64,000 bases of DNA, from positions 1 through 64,000 of IMG/VR virus record IMGVR_UViG_3300042914_004291; one strand, written 5' to 3'. The number at the start of each line of letters is the position of its first letter. The first letter of the stretch is position 1. Positions 9,269-15,426 of this stretch are shown piece by piece. Source of the DNA: a virus. Made by a program: the position numbers and the translations under genes. A model generated the notes under the pieces. That model saw only the letters and a program-made list of their open reading frames with translations, was not told the DNA's origin and searched no databases.

Positions 9269-10210
9269 TCAGTCGTTCAGGAGGAGCGTGGTGACTTTGT
9301 CGCCGGAATCAACGGCTTGTTTTGCCGCGGTGACTTCTTCGTGAGAATCCAAGTCAATTGATGCAATGGAGAAGTGGTCTTCGGCAGTGTTTCCGATGAT
9401 GAAAGCTGCGTCCACGAGATCGTCGAAATATTTCTTCACGGCAGGATTATCAATCACATTTTCCTGGAAGGAACTCTTCTGGAATTTGATCTCATGAAGC
9501 ACCTCACCTGAATCCGCGTCTGATACTTCAAAAGTTTTCCATGCGCCGGTTCCACTGACACTGATATGTTTGCCGTCAACAAGAGCTTTTCCAGCTTTCT
9601 CACAGAACTGTCGGAGCTCATCGAACAACTGCTCTGTCTCAACGATACCTTTGCCAAAGTGAATCTCGAAAGATGTTTGCCGCCATGGACGTGCAACCTT
9701 GTTCTTGATCACTTTGACGTCAACAGCAATACCAACAACCTGTTCTCTACCGTTAATTGTCTTCTTGATCTGTTGGCCACCAGAAAGTTTCAAACGCAAA
9801 CTAGCGTGATAAGGAATTGCATTACCCCCGGGAGTAGTGTTATGGTTGATCTGGCCCTCGGCCAGATATGTCTGCGTATCTTCAACAGTGACATCAACTA
9901 CTTCCATCGACTGATCGATCAAGACAGCCTCTGGGTGATCCTTGAGCTCTACCCACTCACCATCGTGCAGTACACGGTGAACGGAGGTGCCACAAAGTGT
10001 TCCTAATTGGTAATGTTGCTGGACTGATGGCTTCACCACCAAGTGTGTTAGCGGCTTGAACACTGTTTCGCAAGTATTCGTATCATAACTTTCAATTTCA
10101 ATGCCTCGGGCACTTATATCGATGACGCGTGGAGTTGAAAAATCTGTTACTCCACACTCGCGAAACAATGCCGACAATTCAATGGCTTCTGGTTGATTTT
10201 CTTTTTTCAT
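9269..10210 (-). CDS. uvsX-C: UvsX/RecA C-terminal half fused behind C-intein
   Basis: A 313-residue protein in two parts. Residues 1-124 are an intein C-fragment: block B-like GTLCGTSVH (T75, H78), block F VVDVTVEDTQTYLAEG and the terminal INHN at 121-124. From Thr125 the sequence is RecA (TTPGGNAIPYHASLRL, then VKVIKNKVARPWRQTSFEIHFGKGI), continuing exactly where the N-half stops in the L2 loop. Trans-splicing with the N-half would give a recombinase of about 447 residues, with Thr125 as the +1 nucleophile. The start overlaps the endonuclease gene end by 32 nt and has the leader AAAGAGATAA before ATG. Confidence 0.9.
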   Translation of the reverse strand: MKKENQPEAIELSALFRECGVTDFSTPRVIDISARGIEIESYDTNTCETVFKPLTHLVVKPSVQQHYQLGTLCGTSVHRVLHDGEWVELKDHPEAVLIDQSMEVVDVTVEDTQTYLAEGQINHNTTPGGNAIPYHASLRLKLSGGQQIKKTINGREQVVGIAVDVKVIKNKVARPWRQTSFEIHFGKGIVETEQLFDELRQFCEKAGKALVDGKHISVSGTGAWKTFEVSDADSGEVLHEIKFQKSSFQENVIDNPAVKKYFDDLVDAAFIIGNTAEDHFSIASIDLDSHEEVTAAKQAVDSGDKVTTLLLND

Positions 10211-11246
10211 TTATCTCTTTTTCAATCTTTGAATTTACTTTTTCTTGCTCGCAAAGTAGCTCGGTTTCCCAAAAAACAACGACTTTATACCCAGCAGTTT
10301 CTAGCAAATCAGCTCTGATTCGATCTCGCTCCCATATCATCGCAGCGGTGACTTCGCCATAAACTAGGTCGCTAGCTGAATGGTTCTTCGGGTTAGCATG
10401 CCAGTAATCACCATAACACTCAAAAATCATTCCGTCAACAACGAAATCGGGGTAAAAAATCACATCATCAACTTTAACGGGCGGCTCGTATGCGAACTCT
10501 AGCCTGTTTCTCGCGAGAATTTTGGCCAACTCACTTTCTGGCTTGTTCATGCGTATATCGTTGAAAACATGTTTTTTGGCATACCTGCCTTTGAACCACT
10601 TATCTAATTTGGCCAAATTGTTAGTTGAACGAGCTTCGGCCCACATCTGTTTGGAGGCGCGAGAGATCTTCTCCACCCTGTCTGGTTTGTTACATGCATC
10701 AATCAACGTCTCCCTGCCTCCAGACTCTAACCACTTCTGAAAACCAGCCTTTTTCTTTTCGGCGACAATTGGGTTATTTAGCACCTTCTTCATCTTTGCT
10801 TTGTTTCCATCTAAGGCCCACCAAGCAGCCCTAGATTCGGCATTGGCTTTTCTGTTGGAAGACTTGCGCAACTTCGCACGATACTCCTCGGTGGCAACTA
10901 CGGCAGCATGGTTGGCTTTCGTTTTTACATCAACTTCCTCGAAATAACGTTGAATGGCTGGCAATAGACTTGAATCGATGATGCCATTCGCTATGCCATA
11001 GTCAATTGCGCGTCGTTTATTGAAAAACTCCTTGTAGAATGCATAAGCAGATGCGCCATCAGACTCGCCGAGATAATACGTGAAGTAACCCTCAACACTG
11101 GCCGATATGGGACGACCATCGGATCGTTTTAGAGCTTGTTTTGTTTTGAACTCTTGCTTCAACGTCGCAGAAAACTTAGGCACTCCGTTCTGTATACAGA
11201 AGTTGAAGTTGAAGAATTTCTGAGGTGGTGTGGTGGTTGGGTCCAT
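10179..11246 (-). CDS. Vsr-like (EDxHD-type) homing endonuclease between split intein halves
   Basis: A 355-residue protein. The C-terminal 110 residues carry a PD-(D/E)xK/Vsr-type nuclease core: FYPDFVVDG (D267), IFECYGDYWHANP (E276, H283), then WERDRIRADLLETAGYKVVVFW. The N-terminal and middle parts are basic, with Trp/Lys-rich helical repeats (about residues 135-235) typical of modular DNA-binding segments in phage homing endonucleases. It lies between the two uvsX halves on the same strand, 4 nt after the N-half stop. This matches the fractured-gene arrangement described from metagenomes. It probably cleaves intein-less uvsX alleles to spread the cassette. Confidence 0.85.
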   Translation of the reverse strand: MDPTTTPPQKFFNFNFCIQNGVPKFSATLKQEFKTKQALKRSDGRPISASVEGYFTYYLGESDGASAYAFYKEFFNKRRAIDYGIANGIIDSSLLPAIQRYFEEVDVKTKANHAAVVATEEYRAKLRKSSNRKANAESRAAWWALDGNKAKMKKVLNNPIVAEKKKAGFQKWLESGGRETLIDACNKPDRVEKISRASKQMWAEARSTNNLAKLDKWFKGRYAKKHVFNDIRMNKPESELAKILARNRLEFAYEPPVKVDDVIFYPDFVVDGMIFECYGDYWHANPKNHSASDLVYGEVTAAMIWERDRIRADLLETAGYKVVVFWETELLCEQEKVNSKIEKEINEKRKSTRSH

Positions 11247-11250
11247 CCGA

Positions 11251-12072
11251 CTAAATATGTGTTCTTCTGATTTTTACTGTTGTTTTTGGACTGACGCATG
11301 TTGGATCTCCGTACATAACACCGATCTTCATGCGTTGTTGATTGATCAGGAGAAGACAGACGTTCTTGTCGCCGATCAGGTGAGTGATCTTTCTGAAGCC
11401 TTTGCTGAGAACTCTTGCGGCAAGGCCGATAGTGTTCTGTTCATAATCGCCTTCGAGTTCGGCTTTTGGTGAACTTGCCGCAACAGAATCCCAGATCACA
11501 AGGATTGGAAGGTCGCTCTTCATGTTTCTTGCCTTGATGATCACGTTCTCAATGATAGAGAAAATCTTCTCCATGCAAGTCTCTTGGACATACACAAAAC
11601 GTTTACCAACATCAAGTCCTAGACTATTCAGGTTGTCGAGAGAGGTTGCGTTCTCGGCATCAATATAAACAACGATGCCACCCATTCTCTGAGTTGCTCT
11701 GGAGGCTTCAATAGCAAGGTGGGATTTACCGTTGGCTTGTGGTCCTTGAATCTCAATGATTCTTCCCTCGGGATAGCCGCCACCTTTCTTGTTTGCAATG
11801 ATATAGTCAAGCTGCCGAGAGCCGGTAGGGATCCAACGTTTAACATTTGTTGGAGCACTGTCTTCTGCTAGGTTGAATGCAATCTTCTCCCCAGCTTCTT
11901 TGTTTGTGTCACGAATCAGGTCTTTGACGAACTGAAAATCTTCAGATGATGCAGATGGTGCAGTGGTCGCCGCTGTTGTTTGTTTCTTGGCAGGAGGTGG
12001 CGTTGGTGTTGGTGCTGTCGCAGTCTTCTTTGCTTGTTCTAGTTGTTGCTTCTTTTTGGCTTTGGCTATCAT
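11251..12072 (-). CDS. uvsX-N: UvsX/RecA N-terminal half ending in a 15-residue N-intein
   Basis: A 273-residue protein. After a Pro/Ala/Thr-rich, basic N-terminal extension (1-45) comes a RecA core: Walker A GPQANGKS (110-117), IVVYIDAEN, Walker B-type LVIWDSVAA and NQQRMKIGVMYGDPT (L2). At residue 259 the sequence changes to CVSPKTTVKIRRTHI and stops. This is an intein N-terminus (Cys1) of only 15 residues. Alone the protein lacks the rest of L2 and the C-terminal strands, so function requires trans-splicing with the product of 9269-10210. It has a promoter at 12103-12131 and a leader AAAAGAGAAA before the ATG. Confidence 0.9.
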   Translation of the reverse strand: MIAKAKKKQQLEQAKKTATAPTPTPPPAKKQTTAATTAPSASSEDFQFVKDLIRDTNKEAGEKIAFNLAEDSAPTNVKRWIPTGSRQLDYIIANKKGGGYPEGRIIEIQGPQANGKSHLAIEASRATQRMGGIVVYIDAENATSLDNLNSLGLDVGKRFVYVQETCMEKIFSIIENVIIKARNMKSDLPILVIWDSVAASSPKAELEGDYEQNTIGLAARVLSKGFRKITHLIGDKNVCLLLINQQRMKIGVMYGDPTCVSPKTTVKIRRTHI

Positions 12073-12131: not shown

Positions 12132-12359
12132 ACACGTGTTTGTGACTCAAAACAAAGCAAAAAGCAAACTAGAACAACAAACAGCGAGCTCGAAATACCA
12201 CCAGTTGTTTTGGATATAGGTCACAAGAAACAACAAAGCCTAGAAACCGCTCCTGACATTCCCTCTTCAATGAATGAGGTTGGAGTTGCGGCCTGGGCTT
12301 TGTTTGTTTTGTTGTTCTGGTCGGTTGGTATGCTCTTAGCTAAGAACTATCAGAACTGA
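12111..12359 (+). CDS. small single-pass membrane protein
   Basis: An 82-residue protein with a polar N-terminal 55 residues and a C-terminal hydrophobic helix (VGVAAWALFVLLFWSVGML) followed by a short basic tail, so it is probably tail-anchored. The start is taken at the ATG at 12111; a TTG start further upstream is less likely. It is opposite in strand to its neighbours, fills the gap between uvsX-N and the SSB gene, and overlaps the SSB 3' end by 10 nt. No ribosome site is obvious, so expression is uncertain. Confidence 0.45.
   Translation: MRYYGSQTRVCDSKQSKKQTRTTNSELEIPPVVLDIGHKKQQSLETAPDIPSSMNEVGVAAWALFVLLFWSVGMLLAKNYQN
12129..12142. promoter_or_regulatory. perfect 14-bp palindrome at the uvsX -35 box
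   Basis: CAAACACGTGTTTG is perfectly palindromic, is flanked by GAGT and TGACTC, and overlaps the -35 hexamer (12126-12131). This is the position expected for a repressor operator. It is also inside the first codons of the plus-strand small gene. Confidence 0.4.
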
Positions 12360-13234
12360 TCGAATGCCTCACCAAGAGCAGCTTCGGTGTCTGCATCAAC
12401 CTCACCTTCGGTCGACTCAACCTTGGTTGTTTCCTCTGCTGAAGCCTTGCCTTTCCCGCGCTTAGCTGCTGCGGGGGCTTTTGTGTCAGAAGATGTCGCA
12501 ACCACAGGCTGAGTCTCTTGCAGTCTGACCATGTATTCCTCAAGAATCTGAATGAGATCCTCTGGTGATTTGACCCAACGCTTCTGTTGCTCAAAGAAGT
12601 CAGGAATGCTATCGATCAACTTTTGCATCTCTGCCTTGTTCGAGTGCAAAGGACTTGGACGACGGTGAAGGATTGGTGCATTGACTTGCTTGCAGGGTTT
12701 GCCTTCATAGAGCTTGACCTTGCCATCCTTCACGAGAGGAACAATGTTGATCTCCATATCATAACCGACATTGTAGTCCAGGAGATCCTCGTCCTTGTTT
12801 TGATCTGAAAGCATCAGACCGTACAATGACTTGACAAACGCTTCCTTCACTTCCCAGATGCGAACGCCTTTGTCTTCTTCACCGCGGACAAGGACTGCCG
12901 CGAAGAAACAGCGCTGTGGTTTGAGATTCTTAGCGATCTCCCAGCCTTCCTTTGTCTTGCGGAGAGCTTCAAACTGCTCATTGATTGGGTCTTCCATGCC
13001 CCAACCAATCGGAGCATTGATGCTTTTTTGCACGAGTGGTTTGCCGTAACGCAAGAGTGGAAGAATTGGAGTGTTGTCTTCTGTCTTCATCTTCAAGAGA
13101 CGGACATTATAGACGCCAAGACCGGGACTCCAGTAAGAGATCTTTGGGCCATTGCTGCCTGAGTCGTTGTTGGATCTGTTGTTCTTTGGAGTGAGAAAGC
13201 TTGAGATTCCGTTGAGATATGCTGGTGATGCCAT
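12350..13234 (-). CDS. gp32-like single-stranded DNA-binding protein
   Basis: A 294-residue protein with the layout of T4 gp32: a short N-terminal cooperativity region, an OB-fold core with YWSPGLGVYNVRLLKM and FFAAVLVRGEEDKGVRIWEV, and an acidic C-terminal tail ending in AALGEAFDQF, the usual partner-binding tail. The Lys/Ala-rich linker before the tail resembles the gp32 flexible hinge. It coats ssDNA during replication and recombination and should work with UvsX next door. The promoter at 13360-13388 gives a long leader (about 120 nt) that could allow autogenous control. Confidence 0.8.
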   Translation of the reverse strand: MASPAYLNGISSFLTPKNNRSNNDSGSNGPKISYWSPGLGVYNVRLLKMKTEDNTPILPLLRYGKPLVQKSINAPIGWGMEDPINEQFEALRKTKEGWEIAKNLKPQRCFFAAVLVRGEEDKGVRIWEVKEAFVKSLYGLMLSDQNKDEDLLDYNVGYDMEINIVPLVKDGKVKLYEGKPCKQVNAPILHRRPSPLHSNKAEMQKLIDSIPDFFEQQKRWVKSPEDLIQILEEYMVRLQETQPVVATSSDTKAPAAAKRGKGKASAEETTKVESTEGEVDADTEAALGEAFDQF

Positions 13235-13359
13235 GTGTGTTTTGCTTTGATGTACTTGAGTTGTGTAATGTATTTTTAGAAACAGCTCTAGAGGTATTAC
13301 GAGAGATCTGTTGTCTAAGTCAGGGGCACAACTGAACCACCTGAACTCGTTCTTTAACT
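13235..13359 (-). promoter_or_regulatory. long untranslated leader of the SSB mRNA
   Basis: About 120 nt lie between the predicted start of transcription and the ATG. The 5' part can pair TCAGG (13336-13340) with CCTGA (13317-13321). The last 45 nt before the ATG are A/C-rich and unstructured, with no Shine-Dalgarno sequence. T4 gene 32 is autoregulated through a structured element followed by an unstructured leader, and this layout is similar. Confidence 0.35.
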
Positions 13360-13388
13360 ATGCTAACCGGTGGATAAAACCGTGTCAA
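13360..13388 (-). promoter_or_regulatory. sigma70-like promoter for the SSB gene
   Basis: Minus strand: TTGACA, 17 bp, TAGCAT. It lies 17 nt beyond the stop of the upstream HD-like gene and is followed by the long SSB leader. Confidence 0.65.
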
Positions 13389-13404
13389 GACTTGAGGAAA
13401 AGAC

Positions 13405-14112
13405 TTATTTTGCAGCGGTTTTCTTTGATTCGAAACCCTGGGCTTCGGTCCTGTTCTTGAGTGTTGCGCAGGCTGCTGCGTATGCTTGGTTGATCACTAG
13501 TGTGAGCCATGACACTTGGCTGTCTTGAGAGCCGGTTGAAGATTGGTTCTCTTTGCCTGTGAGGTATCTGGTTTTATCATAGCCCATTGTCTGGATCACT
13601 TGGAGTTCTTCTGGTGAAAGGTTGAACCCAAGCTGGGATAGTCGCCAGATGCTGAGATTTGGAATGCTGTAATTTGCTAGCTTTGGATTGATTGTGTAGA
13701 TCGCACCTTGGTTCTTGCGATGCCATTCTGAATCATTCCAGAGAAAGAATGGTGCTTGGTCTGTTCCATGGGCTCCTAGGAGGGAAAAGAGAGTGCAAAC
13801 AACCAATGAGTCTGCTGGGATGCTTGATTCGTAGGCAACGTTGAGTTTTGCGGCGAATTTCAGTGTCTGAAGCGCCATCTCCACCAAGCCACCATCATAG
13901 GCGCCGCCATAGTGAATGTGAGTTGCAGCAGGCGCGCTAGCAATCTCTCCGACGTTCTTTTCAAGAAACTTGAACAGGTTTTCATATCCGGTGCGATTAG
14001 CTAGCTTGGCTTCGACCATTTTCATGAAACTCTCAAAGTTTTTTGCCAGCAATTCCTTCTGCACCTGAGAGACTTCGACTGTGTTGGTTTTCTTTGATGA
14101 CTTTGTTGACAT
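13405..14112 (-). CDS. degenerate HD-domain-like protein
   Basis: A 235-residue protein. The segment ATHIHYGGAYDGGLVEMAL (residues 63-81) aligns with the start of phage HD phosphohydrolases, whose usual form is H-x-H-x-GAY-x-GGL-x-H-S-L. Here the later histidine is Met, and the diagnostic His-Asp pair is replaced by GAHGTD (113-118). The later part (IPNLSIWRLSQLGFNLSPEELQVIQTMG) fits the same family. With metal ligands lost it is probably not an active phosphohydrolase and may have a structural or binding role. It sits between the polymerase (12 nt upstream) and the SSB. Confidence 0.5.
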   Translation of the reverse strand: MSTKSSKKTNTVEVSQVQKELLAKNFESFMKMVEAKLANRTGYENLFKFLEKNVGEIASAPAATHIHYGGAYDGGLVEMALQTLKFAAKLNVAYESSIPADSLVVCTLFSLLGAHGTDQAPFFLWNDSEWHRKNQGAIYTINPKLANYSIPNLSIWRLSQLGFNLSPEELQVIQTMGYDKTRYLTGKENQSSTGSQDSQVSWLTLVINQAYAAACATLKNRTEAQGFESKKTAAK

Positions 14113-14124
14113 TTTTTCTTTGCG

Positions 14125-15426
14125 TTACTGTTTTGGAATGTGAATGAAGGGTGTTTGCCGAAGTTTGAAGCTGCCATCCTCAAATCCCGGCAAATCGCGT
14201 GATCCAATCTTGGCCAAGGAATTAATCGTTGTCAAGCCATTAGATTCTGGCCCTATGTTCACATCGAAAACAATCATGTCGTGCAGCAAGTACAGTGGAA
14301 CCGCAATATTACTAAGGAACTCTTCTGTGTCTGGGATATCATCCTGAATATATGAAACAATGTTCTTGAACCCGGACATCGCCAGATCTACAGCGCTAGA
14401 TTGAAAATATCGATTGATCAGGAGGTTGTCGCTGTCGCAAAGAATTGGTCTGCCGTAATAGTTCTCAATGAAGGAACATGAGTTCTTGCCGGTCCATTCC
14501 TCGTAAAGCTTCCTCTGAATATCGTCCAGACAAAGAACATCATCTACAATCTCTACTAGTTTTGCGGCCGTAATTCCATGCCCCAGTCTAAACGTCTCAT
14601 TGATCTTTGAAATCAAACCAGACGTCTGCATCCCGTTCATCCTGGAGACTGTTATTGATTTCATTACATCCCTGAGTTCAGGAATTGAAGAACCGCTCTG
14701 AGCTAGTCCTGTTCTTCTCAATATTTCTATGTAAGGATCAGTGCTATTACTGTGTATTCCTTCTCTTAGTATCTTACTAGTATACCCCATACTCTTCTTC
14801 TCCTTCTCTTGCTCGGATAGTGTAGGGGACACGTGAGGATGGGAGAACAGTGATGATTTGTTGAGACAGACAAGCATCGAAGGTTCTAGTGCTTGGTAAT
14901 CTAGACCTATAATAGCACCATGGTCGCCCCAACGAGAAACAATCATGTTCCTGTGCTGTTTTTTCAAGTTAAGAATGTTTGGGCCATGCTCTACAACAAG
15001 CCTTCCAGTTGCGCTAGAAACCCTTGAATACCTAGGCACTAGAGCGAAACCATCGGAGTCAGGTTCAAAACCAGAAACAATCTTGGTCGTGTCTTCGTGT
15101 GAGTATTGTTCGAACAGAACAGGATCTATCTTTGCAGGCTGAAACAGAGATTCAGGCTTGAAGAGATATTCTTCGGTTGGCGCAAAAACATCTAGAAGAT
15201 ACGGAGAAGTATTGCGGAGATTTCTGATCGTGTTGTTGAATATCTCAAGATCTTTGTTAAACTTTTCTGCAAGTCGTTCAGGCAGAACCATGCCCCATGG
15301 CACATCGGATGTTTTTGCATGCGACGCAATGGTGCCATAGATTTGTTTGAACATCTCTGGGACATGGACCGACGGGTGTTCCAGGAGGAACAGTTTGGCG
15401 ATGATATCGTCTGGGATGTTTGTCAT
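14125..15426 (-). CDS. family A DNA polymerase, polymerase domain only
   Basis: A 433-residue protein matching the palm and fingers of DNA polymerase I. TGRL at 140-143 is followed by motif A IIGLDYQALEPS (catalytic D176, E181), O-helix RDVMKSITVSRMNGM (R252, K256) and motif C LLHDMIVFDV (H382, D383). There is no 3'-5' exonuclease domain. Deviations: the O-helix Phe and Tyr positions are Val260 and Asn264, the Glu after the motif C Asp is Met384, and about 30 extra residues lie between motifs A and B. It is probably the replicative or an accessory polymerase, working with the FEN nuclease and helicase encoded elsewhere. Promoter at 15515-15543. Confidence 0.8.
   Translation of the reverse strand: MTNIPDDIIAKLFLLEHPSVHVPEMFKQIYGTIASHAKTSDVPWGMVLPERLAEKFNKDLEIFNNTIRNLRNTSPYLLDVFAPTEEYLFKPESLFQPAKIDPVLFEQYSHEDTTKIVSGFEPDSDGFALVPRYSRVSSATGRLVVEHGPNILNLKKQHRNMIVSRWGDHGAIIGLDYQALEPSMLVCLNKSSLFSHPHVSPTLSEQEKEKKSMGYTSKILREGIHSNSTDPYIEILRRTGLAQSGSSIPELRDVMKSITVSRMNGMQTSGLISKINETFRLGHGITAAKLVEIVDDVLCLDDIQRKLYEEWTGKNSCSFIENYYGRPILCDSDNLLINRYFQSSAVDLAMSGFKNIVSYIQDDIPDTEEFLSNIAVPLYLLHDMIVFDVNIGPESNGLTTINSLAKIGSRDLPGFEDGSFKLRQTPFIHIPKQ
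14741..14847 (-). repeat. in-frame insert related to a segment of the primase gene
   Basis: Purine-rich segment (coding strand) within the polymerase gene. It shares TACTAGTAAG and the following CTAAG-GAAGG-AT pattern (21 of 27 bases) with 54775-54898, both starting with TTCTCC and read in the same frame. It encodes the extra residues (about 194-228) between polymerase motifs A and B. Confidence 0.5.

Follow-up and report, generated by a model that had tools for sequence, protein, structure and literature searches.

Fractured genes, in which a free-standing Vsr-like endonuclease gene lies between the two halves of a split intein, were reportedly described by Dassa and co-workers in 2009 for eight types of gene. 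The well-studied inteins of this kind are split canonically and keep a long N-part. A different split position, named S1, has been described for the inteins VidaL and PolB16 (PMC13014065). The locus analysed here lies in a stretch of 64,000 nucleotides (nt), called the window below, which covers positions 1-64,000 of the virus record IMGVR_UViG_3300042914_004291 (G000; 137,189 bases in all). Neither the fracturing of genes around Vsr-like nucleases nor the splitting of inteins at S1 is new. We think, with a probability of about 0.9, that this locus is a fractured recA in which a class 1 mini-intein in the L2 loop is S1-split around a Vsr-like homing endonuclease gene, and whose products would be joined by trans-splicing into a recombinase of 447 amino acids (aa).

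The original prediction, made from the sequence of the window, had read the recombinase as two separate genes with an endonuclease gene between them, and the coordinates and reading frames are borne out base by base. Three genes lie head to tail on the minus strand: 12072-11251 (273 aa), 11246-10179 (355 aa) and 10210-9269 (313 aa). The N-half ends as predicted, with GVMYGDPT plus 15 residues: the extein of 258 aa is followed by C259-I273 and a TAG stop codon. The endonuclease open reading frame (ORF) begins 4 nt past this stop, and its assignment is supported by a match to TIGR00632 vsr (3.7e-6). In the C-half, residues 1-124 end in GQINHN and the RecA remainder TTPGGNAIPYHAS follows, in agreement with the prediction that the L2 loop resumes exactly at TTPGGNA after INHN. 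The parts of the locus are the following.

11299-12072, minus strand: N-extein of a RecA/UvsX-type recombinase, 258 aa, with Walker A motif GPQANGKS, up to GVMYGDPT
11254-11298, minus strand: N-intein CVSPKTTVKIRRTHI, 15 aa, block A with Cys1; TAG at 11251-11253
10179-11246, minus strand: Vsr-like (EDxHD-type) free-standing endonuclease gene, 355 aa, between the halves
10179-10210, minus strand: overlap of 32 nt between the 3' end of the endonuclease gene, including its stop, and the start of the C-half
9839-10210, minus strand: C-intein MKKENQPEAIELSALF...GTSVHRVL...VVDVTVEDTQTYLAEGQINHN, 124 aa
9272-9838, minus strand: C-extein of the recombinase, TTPGGNAIPYHASLRLKL..., 189 aa, remainder of the L2 loop and C-terminal part; stop at 9269-9271

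Joined in silico, the exteins (258 + 189 aa) give a protein of 447 aa that carries the RecA core with Walker A and the L2 loop, as is proper to RecA/UvsX recombinases. At the joint, inside the L2 loop, this protein aligns without any gap to Escherichia coli RecA (kigvmygdptttpggna against kigvmfgnpetttggna), a fit that, as judged from the alignment, is far beyond chance. Moreover, the halves tile the RecA profile PF00154, the N-half covering profile positions 5-203 (5.3e-40) and the C-half positions 198-261 (8.1e-13), and the N-half matches the UvsX-like recombinases of phrog_97 at 8.3e-52. No second RecA match was found in the 137,189-base record.

Several points weigh against this interpretation and are best considered together. 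The record is a virus contig from a metagenome, and it is from sequence that we infer splicing, expression and the action of the nuclease. Generic intein models match the C-half poorly: Pfam Intein_splicing gives an E-value of 0.035, below the cut-off, and TIGR01443 gives 0.013 (15.7 bits), just at the cut-off. The N-intein of 15 residues is too short to be recognized by any profile, and for this reason its assignment rests on position, Cys1 and relatives. It was because of the weak matches of the generic models that we searched for relatives among uncultivated phage and viral contigs (labelled L and a number). A DNA pattern for RecA with a Cys at the exact insertion site retrieved 54 viral stretches, nearly all of them true RecA genes; some are larger contiguous inteins of a different type (the L087 kind) and the rest form one family, which was then enlarged beyond the 54 by profile scans. 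Cys1 was required by the scan and is thus present in all the relatives found. For the contig scan, close subsets took the place of the 18-row intein profile, whose members were too unlike each other, and for the nuclease a three-sequence profile succeeded as a query of the viral contigs where a single sequence had given no match. A Tblastn search of INPHARED phages with the intein of L135 and the C-intein of L154 gave no match, so that no member among cultured phages came to light. Two candidates were rejected. In L140, the one RecA-like match in the genome-contig scan for a Cys at the site, the frame stops after ECRFSFCM, and it is not an intein. Acinetobacter phage ME3, considered as a cultured fractured RecA, has its gap at Walker A and no intein motifs in the pieces; the gap fits an intron-type insertion instead.

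The inserted residues have the attributes of a class 1 intein: Cys259 of the N-half is Cys1, block B reads GTSVH, and D106, H123-N124 and a Thr at +1 are in place. Aligned C-inteins of 18 divergent members of the family share 8 invariant columns, among them the block-B His, the block-F Asp and the final His-Asn, and every family-invariant residue is present in the window (block-B His78, block-F Asp106, Tyr115, Gly119, His123, Asn124, Cys1 and Thr +1). The C-intein is 51-53% identical to those of L133 and L135 and 60-62% to that of L149; its differences from the latter fall mostly at third codon positions (0.27/0.23/0.64 at positions 1/2/3). The profile check proposed with the original prediction gave a divided answer: it failed to be convincing with generic models, as described above, while the family's own profile finds solved inteins in the PDB, the best being the Spl DnaX mini-intein (7e-9). 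In addition, the contiguous intein of L135 (133 aa) was modelled with a predicted local distance difference test score (pLDDT) of 97.1, and Foldseek matches this model to the RadA intein 4e2t, the Aes123 PolB1 split intein 9hth, and the TFIIB and Mtu RecA inteins. By way of this contiguous homologue, the predicted fold of the family is the Hint fold, and in the contiguous relatives the aligned N- and C-parts belong to one intein domain. The net charges of the N-intein (+4) and C-intein (-12), considered as a sign of a matched pair, were dropped as an argument because the contiguous relatives have the same charge pattern.

Among the relatives, the insertion site is found empty, with a contiguous intein or with a split one. 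Uninterrupted, empty alleles with GDPT|TTPGG occur in L001 and L005-L024, which means that the +1 Thr needed by the intein is already present in the empty gene. Contiguous mini-inteins occupy the same site in L135, L126, L124 and L150. Split versions occur in about 40 contigs, and their N-inteins, 11-39 residues long, number at least 28 different ones. The interval between the halves holds a Vsr-like nuclease in the window, L149, L154 and L173-L176; a GIY-YIG-like nuclease in L121, L137 and L128, with Pfam support for L121 only (E 0.0054); an HNH-like nuclease in L155, L157 and L158; and other ORFs, with no family assigned, in L104, L106, L167 and L086. There is no nuclease, only a short gap or overlap, in L090, L091, L093, L098, L117, L120, L133, L156 and L159. 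The closest full match to the window is L149, which combines an N-intein of 15 residues with the same nuclease family and has a similar overlap of nuclease and C-half; such an overlap makes translational coupling of the two genes possible. In a tree of RecA cores, the window groups first with L004, to which it is 96% identical over 193 columns, and next with L149 (supports 100/99 and 95/92); the clade that follows consists of five empty alleles. L004 has a contiguous intein of 176 residues, intein A, at KIG|TLYGDPTTTPGG and lacks the intein of the window, intein B; L149 (3648-6927) has a contiguous intein A of 168 aa after KIG, then TMYGDPS, and then a split intein B, the two being seven residues apart. 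The window has intein B only. After intein A comes TLYG or TMYG, in contrast to VMYG in the empty alleles. That close kin differ in this way in their inteins is as expected of mobile elements, and is consistent with homing.

The relatives also bear on the origin of the split. L158 (770-1660) and L159 (5864-6030) have near-identical split recA genes, but the HNH nuclease gene is present only in L158; in L159 about the last 90 nt of the gene are left as a 3' scar. The nuclease can thus be lost while the split persists, and in this pair we see the step of nuclease loss recorded almost directly. The intein tree takes four changes between the contiguous and the split state to account for its four contiguous rows, which may be either ancestral or re-fused. 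We consider it likely that phage recA has a hotspot in its L2 loop, in which homing nucleases of at least three families have repeatedly broken one mini-intein family at S1, and not at the canonical site, giving rise to dozens of split inteins, some with an N-part as short as 11 residues, to derivatives without a nuclease, to three-gene recombinases (L174, L176) and to two inteins seven residues apart (L149).

With this evidence at hand, other explanations of the locus can be weighed. The first is that it is a decaying relic, in which the intein no longer splices and there is no phage recombinase, the phage using the host RecA or another pathway. Gene breaks often mark decay, any activity is a prediction from sequence, and part of the genome may be missing from the 137-kb record. 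On the other hand, the ratio of nonsynonymous to synonymous substitution (dN/dS) relative to L004 is about 0.10 for the N-extein and about 0.05 for the C-extein (86-87% identical to that of L004): both RecA halves are under purifying selection, which is strong and extends to the C-intein. The catalytic residues are all kept, and the split is maintained in many divergent phages, including nuclease-less ones (L156; L159 as compared with L158), so that we find decay improbable.

The second is joining before or during translation, either by two programmed frameshifts, which would make an intein with a nuclease inside, or by removal of an RNA intron. Some relatives lend themselves to this idea, as the nuclease and C-intein of L154 share one open frame and, in other relatives, a group I intron follows the intein site at a distance of about 15 nt. 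In the window, however, the frame changes at both transitions: for the N-half to read on into the endonuclease, a +1-type shift would have to occur before the stop, and reaching the frame of the C-half would take another. An in-frame TAA stands directly upstream of the C-half ATG, and no upstream extension of the C-half is possible. The different frames of the adjoining genes and this TAA exclude a continuous reading frame as written; no group I intron was detected anywhere in the window, and many split relatives lack a nuclease between the halves. We therefore hold this mode of joining to be very improbable.

Split proteins sometimes complement each other, and the two halves could in principle form a non-covalent two-subunit recombinase with no splicing. 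The break is nevertheless in the L2 DNA-binding loop, with each half bearing intein residues there. From RecA biology and the place of the break, neither half alone should act as a recombinase. Moreover, the exact catalytic residues of the intein have been conserved, which would serve no purpose in such a complex, and we give this explanation hardly any credence. An assembly or sequencing artefact, which the metagenomic source might suggest, is practically negligible, as the order of short N-intein, Vsr-like nuclease and C-intein recurs in the independent contigs L149, L154, L173, L174, L175 and L176.

We thus return to the trans-splicing of a fractured recA, for which the following mechanism is proposed. 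A class 1 mini-intein in the L2 loop of a phage RecA/UvsX would have been broken after its second strand by the Vsr-like nuclease gene, and three proteins would be made: RecA-N with the N-intein of 15 residues, the endonuclease, and the C-intein of 124 residues with RecA-C. On association of the halves, the N-intein would complete the fold of the C-intein. Cys1 would attack the Thr258-Cys1 bond, with block-B His78 assisting this first step, the N-extein would be taken over by the +1 Thr, and Asn124 would cyclise with the help of His123, releasing a seamless recombinase of 447 residues. The element was probably spread by the endonuclease into recA alleles without it.

The position of the split deserves attention. 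The 15 residues of the window align to residues 1-15 of L135, whose strands lie at 8-13 and 16-21, and the break hence falls in the turn after the second strand (S1). The predicted N-intein of only 15 residues is confirmed, and that of L149, at the same place, also has 15 aa (CVSPDTKIKVRRRNV). With two genes, each having one extein and one intein part, and with no contiguous copy, the intein is naturally split, and its N-part falls at the short end of the S1 class (about 15-35 aa). Resemblance to known atypical split inteins had been suggested too; by the definition in PMC13014065 and the L135 alignment, this is right for VidaL (S1) and wrong for AceL-TerL (S2). As for the supposed rarity, the window is not an isolated case, as the same RecA site is split in about 40 uncultivated phage contigs.

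The endonuclease was modelled by AlphaFold with a mean pLDDT of 78, and of about 90 in the catalytic part. The top solved matches in Foldseek are the catalytic domain of I-Bth0305I (3r3p), with a template modelling (TM) score of 0.74-0.75 by target length, and E. coli Vsr. The motifs PDF..ECYGDYWHANP..D..WE are conserved in 7 relatives, and the endonuclease is 39% identical to the nuclease of L149 and 37% to that of L154. The group I intron of I-Bth0305I lies in a phage recA gene. In several relatives a hairpin upstream of the nuclease start pairs its ribosome-binding site (L149, -30.3; L121, -33.1; L174, -21.1; L137, -18.6 kcal/mol; also L128), which suggests controlled translation of the nuclease; in the window there is no space for such a hairpin.

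Other arrangements were observed among the relatives. In L174 (4122-7339) and L176 (3442-7705), recA is fractured twice, at Walker A and at L2, and two split inteins would have to join three gene products into the recombinase. The N-intein at Walker A has 13 aa (at GLEG|CVTEDTIIKVIIE in L174) and that at L2 has 15 aa; in L176 the three RecA pieces were confirmed and a nuclease-like ORF is present in both gaps, and in L175 the Walker A intein is in one piece. A further C-intein-like ORF in L174 (10115-11233), ending in SNGILSHN|SWVLAKLGAEAMKQGKNV, is probably part of a third fractured gene, helicase-like. In L154 (4984-6885), the Vsr-like nuclease and C-intein-RecA-C are in one open frame, possibly a nuclease-intein fusion. 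In L190 and L202, C-intein-like ORFs that end in CLHN|CGYRGEIQ or CLHN|CDYYGNTD lie next to a Vsr-like nuclease; here split inteins seem to interrupt dUTPase-like genes. L091 has a group I intron at 660-982 (Rfam RF00028, 5e-16), about 15 nt after the intein, and a corresponding ORF break, from which alone the intron is read, occurs in L089, L090, L093, L094, L098, L102, L106, L117, L120 and L160-L162; in L090 the interval after TTPGG holds a Vsr-like ORF (DUF559/Vsr superfamily). With intein and group I intron in the same recA, these genes would depend on splicing at the RNA as well as at the protein level. Upstream of the locus in the window are the following neighbours, named by motif reading alone.

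12350-15426, minus strand: genes for a 294-aa single-stranded-DNA-binding-like, a 235-aa HD-like and a 433-aa DNA polymerase A-like protein

Their order matches that of L001, where recA is whole, and the sequences are visibly similar; the two of them searched against PHROG had no match.

We found no report of a RecA/UvsX with a split intein in the literature searched, which did not include the key 2009 paper on fractured genes. There is a demand for short natural N-inteins, since a peptide of 15 or 11 residues is accessible by chemical synthesis and can then be joined to proteins. An N-intein of 15 aa has been called the shortest characterised (PMC10189870), and those of L128 (2413-2448; 11 residues, CVAPETLIDID), L121 and L137 (13 residues each) are shorter. 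The literature names only a handful of natural ones, and the RecA family adds many examples of the Cys/Thr type, with contiguous relatives as controls. Moreover, this family opens to test the long-standing question of whether a nuclease first invades and is later lost when split inteins arise. In our opinion, a recombinase that needs post-translational ligation from two or three gene products could also be a control point of phage replication.

Among known systems, the fractured genes of Dassa and co-workers are said to share with the window a conserved gene of DNA metabolism split by an intein, a Vsr-like nuclease in the gap and a phage context, and the free-standing endonuclease gene between split-intein halves places the locus in this group. 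Unlike the canonically split inteins that are best studied there, the nuclease gene is here at S1 and leaves only 15 residues. The PolB1 of Aeromonas phage Aes123 (JN377899; PMC13014065, PDB 9hth) is similar in that split-intein halves flank a Vsr-like nuclease gene, whose product is 39.5% identical to the L149 nuclease over 83 residues, but it is a DNA polymerase with a serine nucleophile and a canonical split. VidaL (N-intein of 16 aa) and PolB16 OarG (15 aa) have the same S1 split and similar N-intein lengths (PMC13014065, PMC10189870), in different host genes; PolB16 has Ser1/Ser+1 in place of Cys1/Thr+1, and the likeness to VidaL seen here is one of split position. AceL-TerL and GOS-TerL, from metagenomic phages, also combine a short N-intein with a long C-intein, whereas the break, in a terminase gene, is at S2 and follows the first helix (25-37 aa; PMC13014065). 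As for the nuclease, the closest structural match, I-Bth0305I, is encoded in a group I intron (PDB 3r3p; PMC3943268), whereas the nuclease of the window has a free-standing gene inside a split intein. The canonical site of nuclease domains within inteins is called highly conserved in PMC6801210, and the S1 location found here differs from it. Finally, inteins in RecA are known from Mycobacterium tuberculosis and at the RecA-b type site, to which L031 belongs: its maxi-intein, in one piece at MYG|SPETTTGG, precedes the window site by a few residues, and we read its nuclease domain as LAGLIDADG-type at the canonical place; these contiguous RecA inteins, unlike that of the window, lie at a different site and are in one piece.
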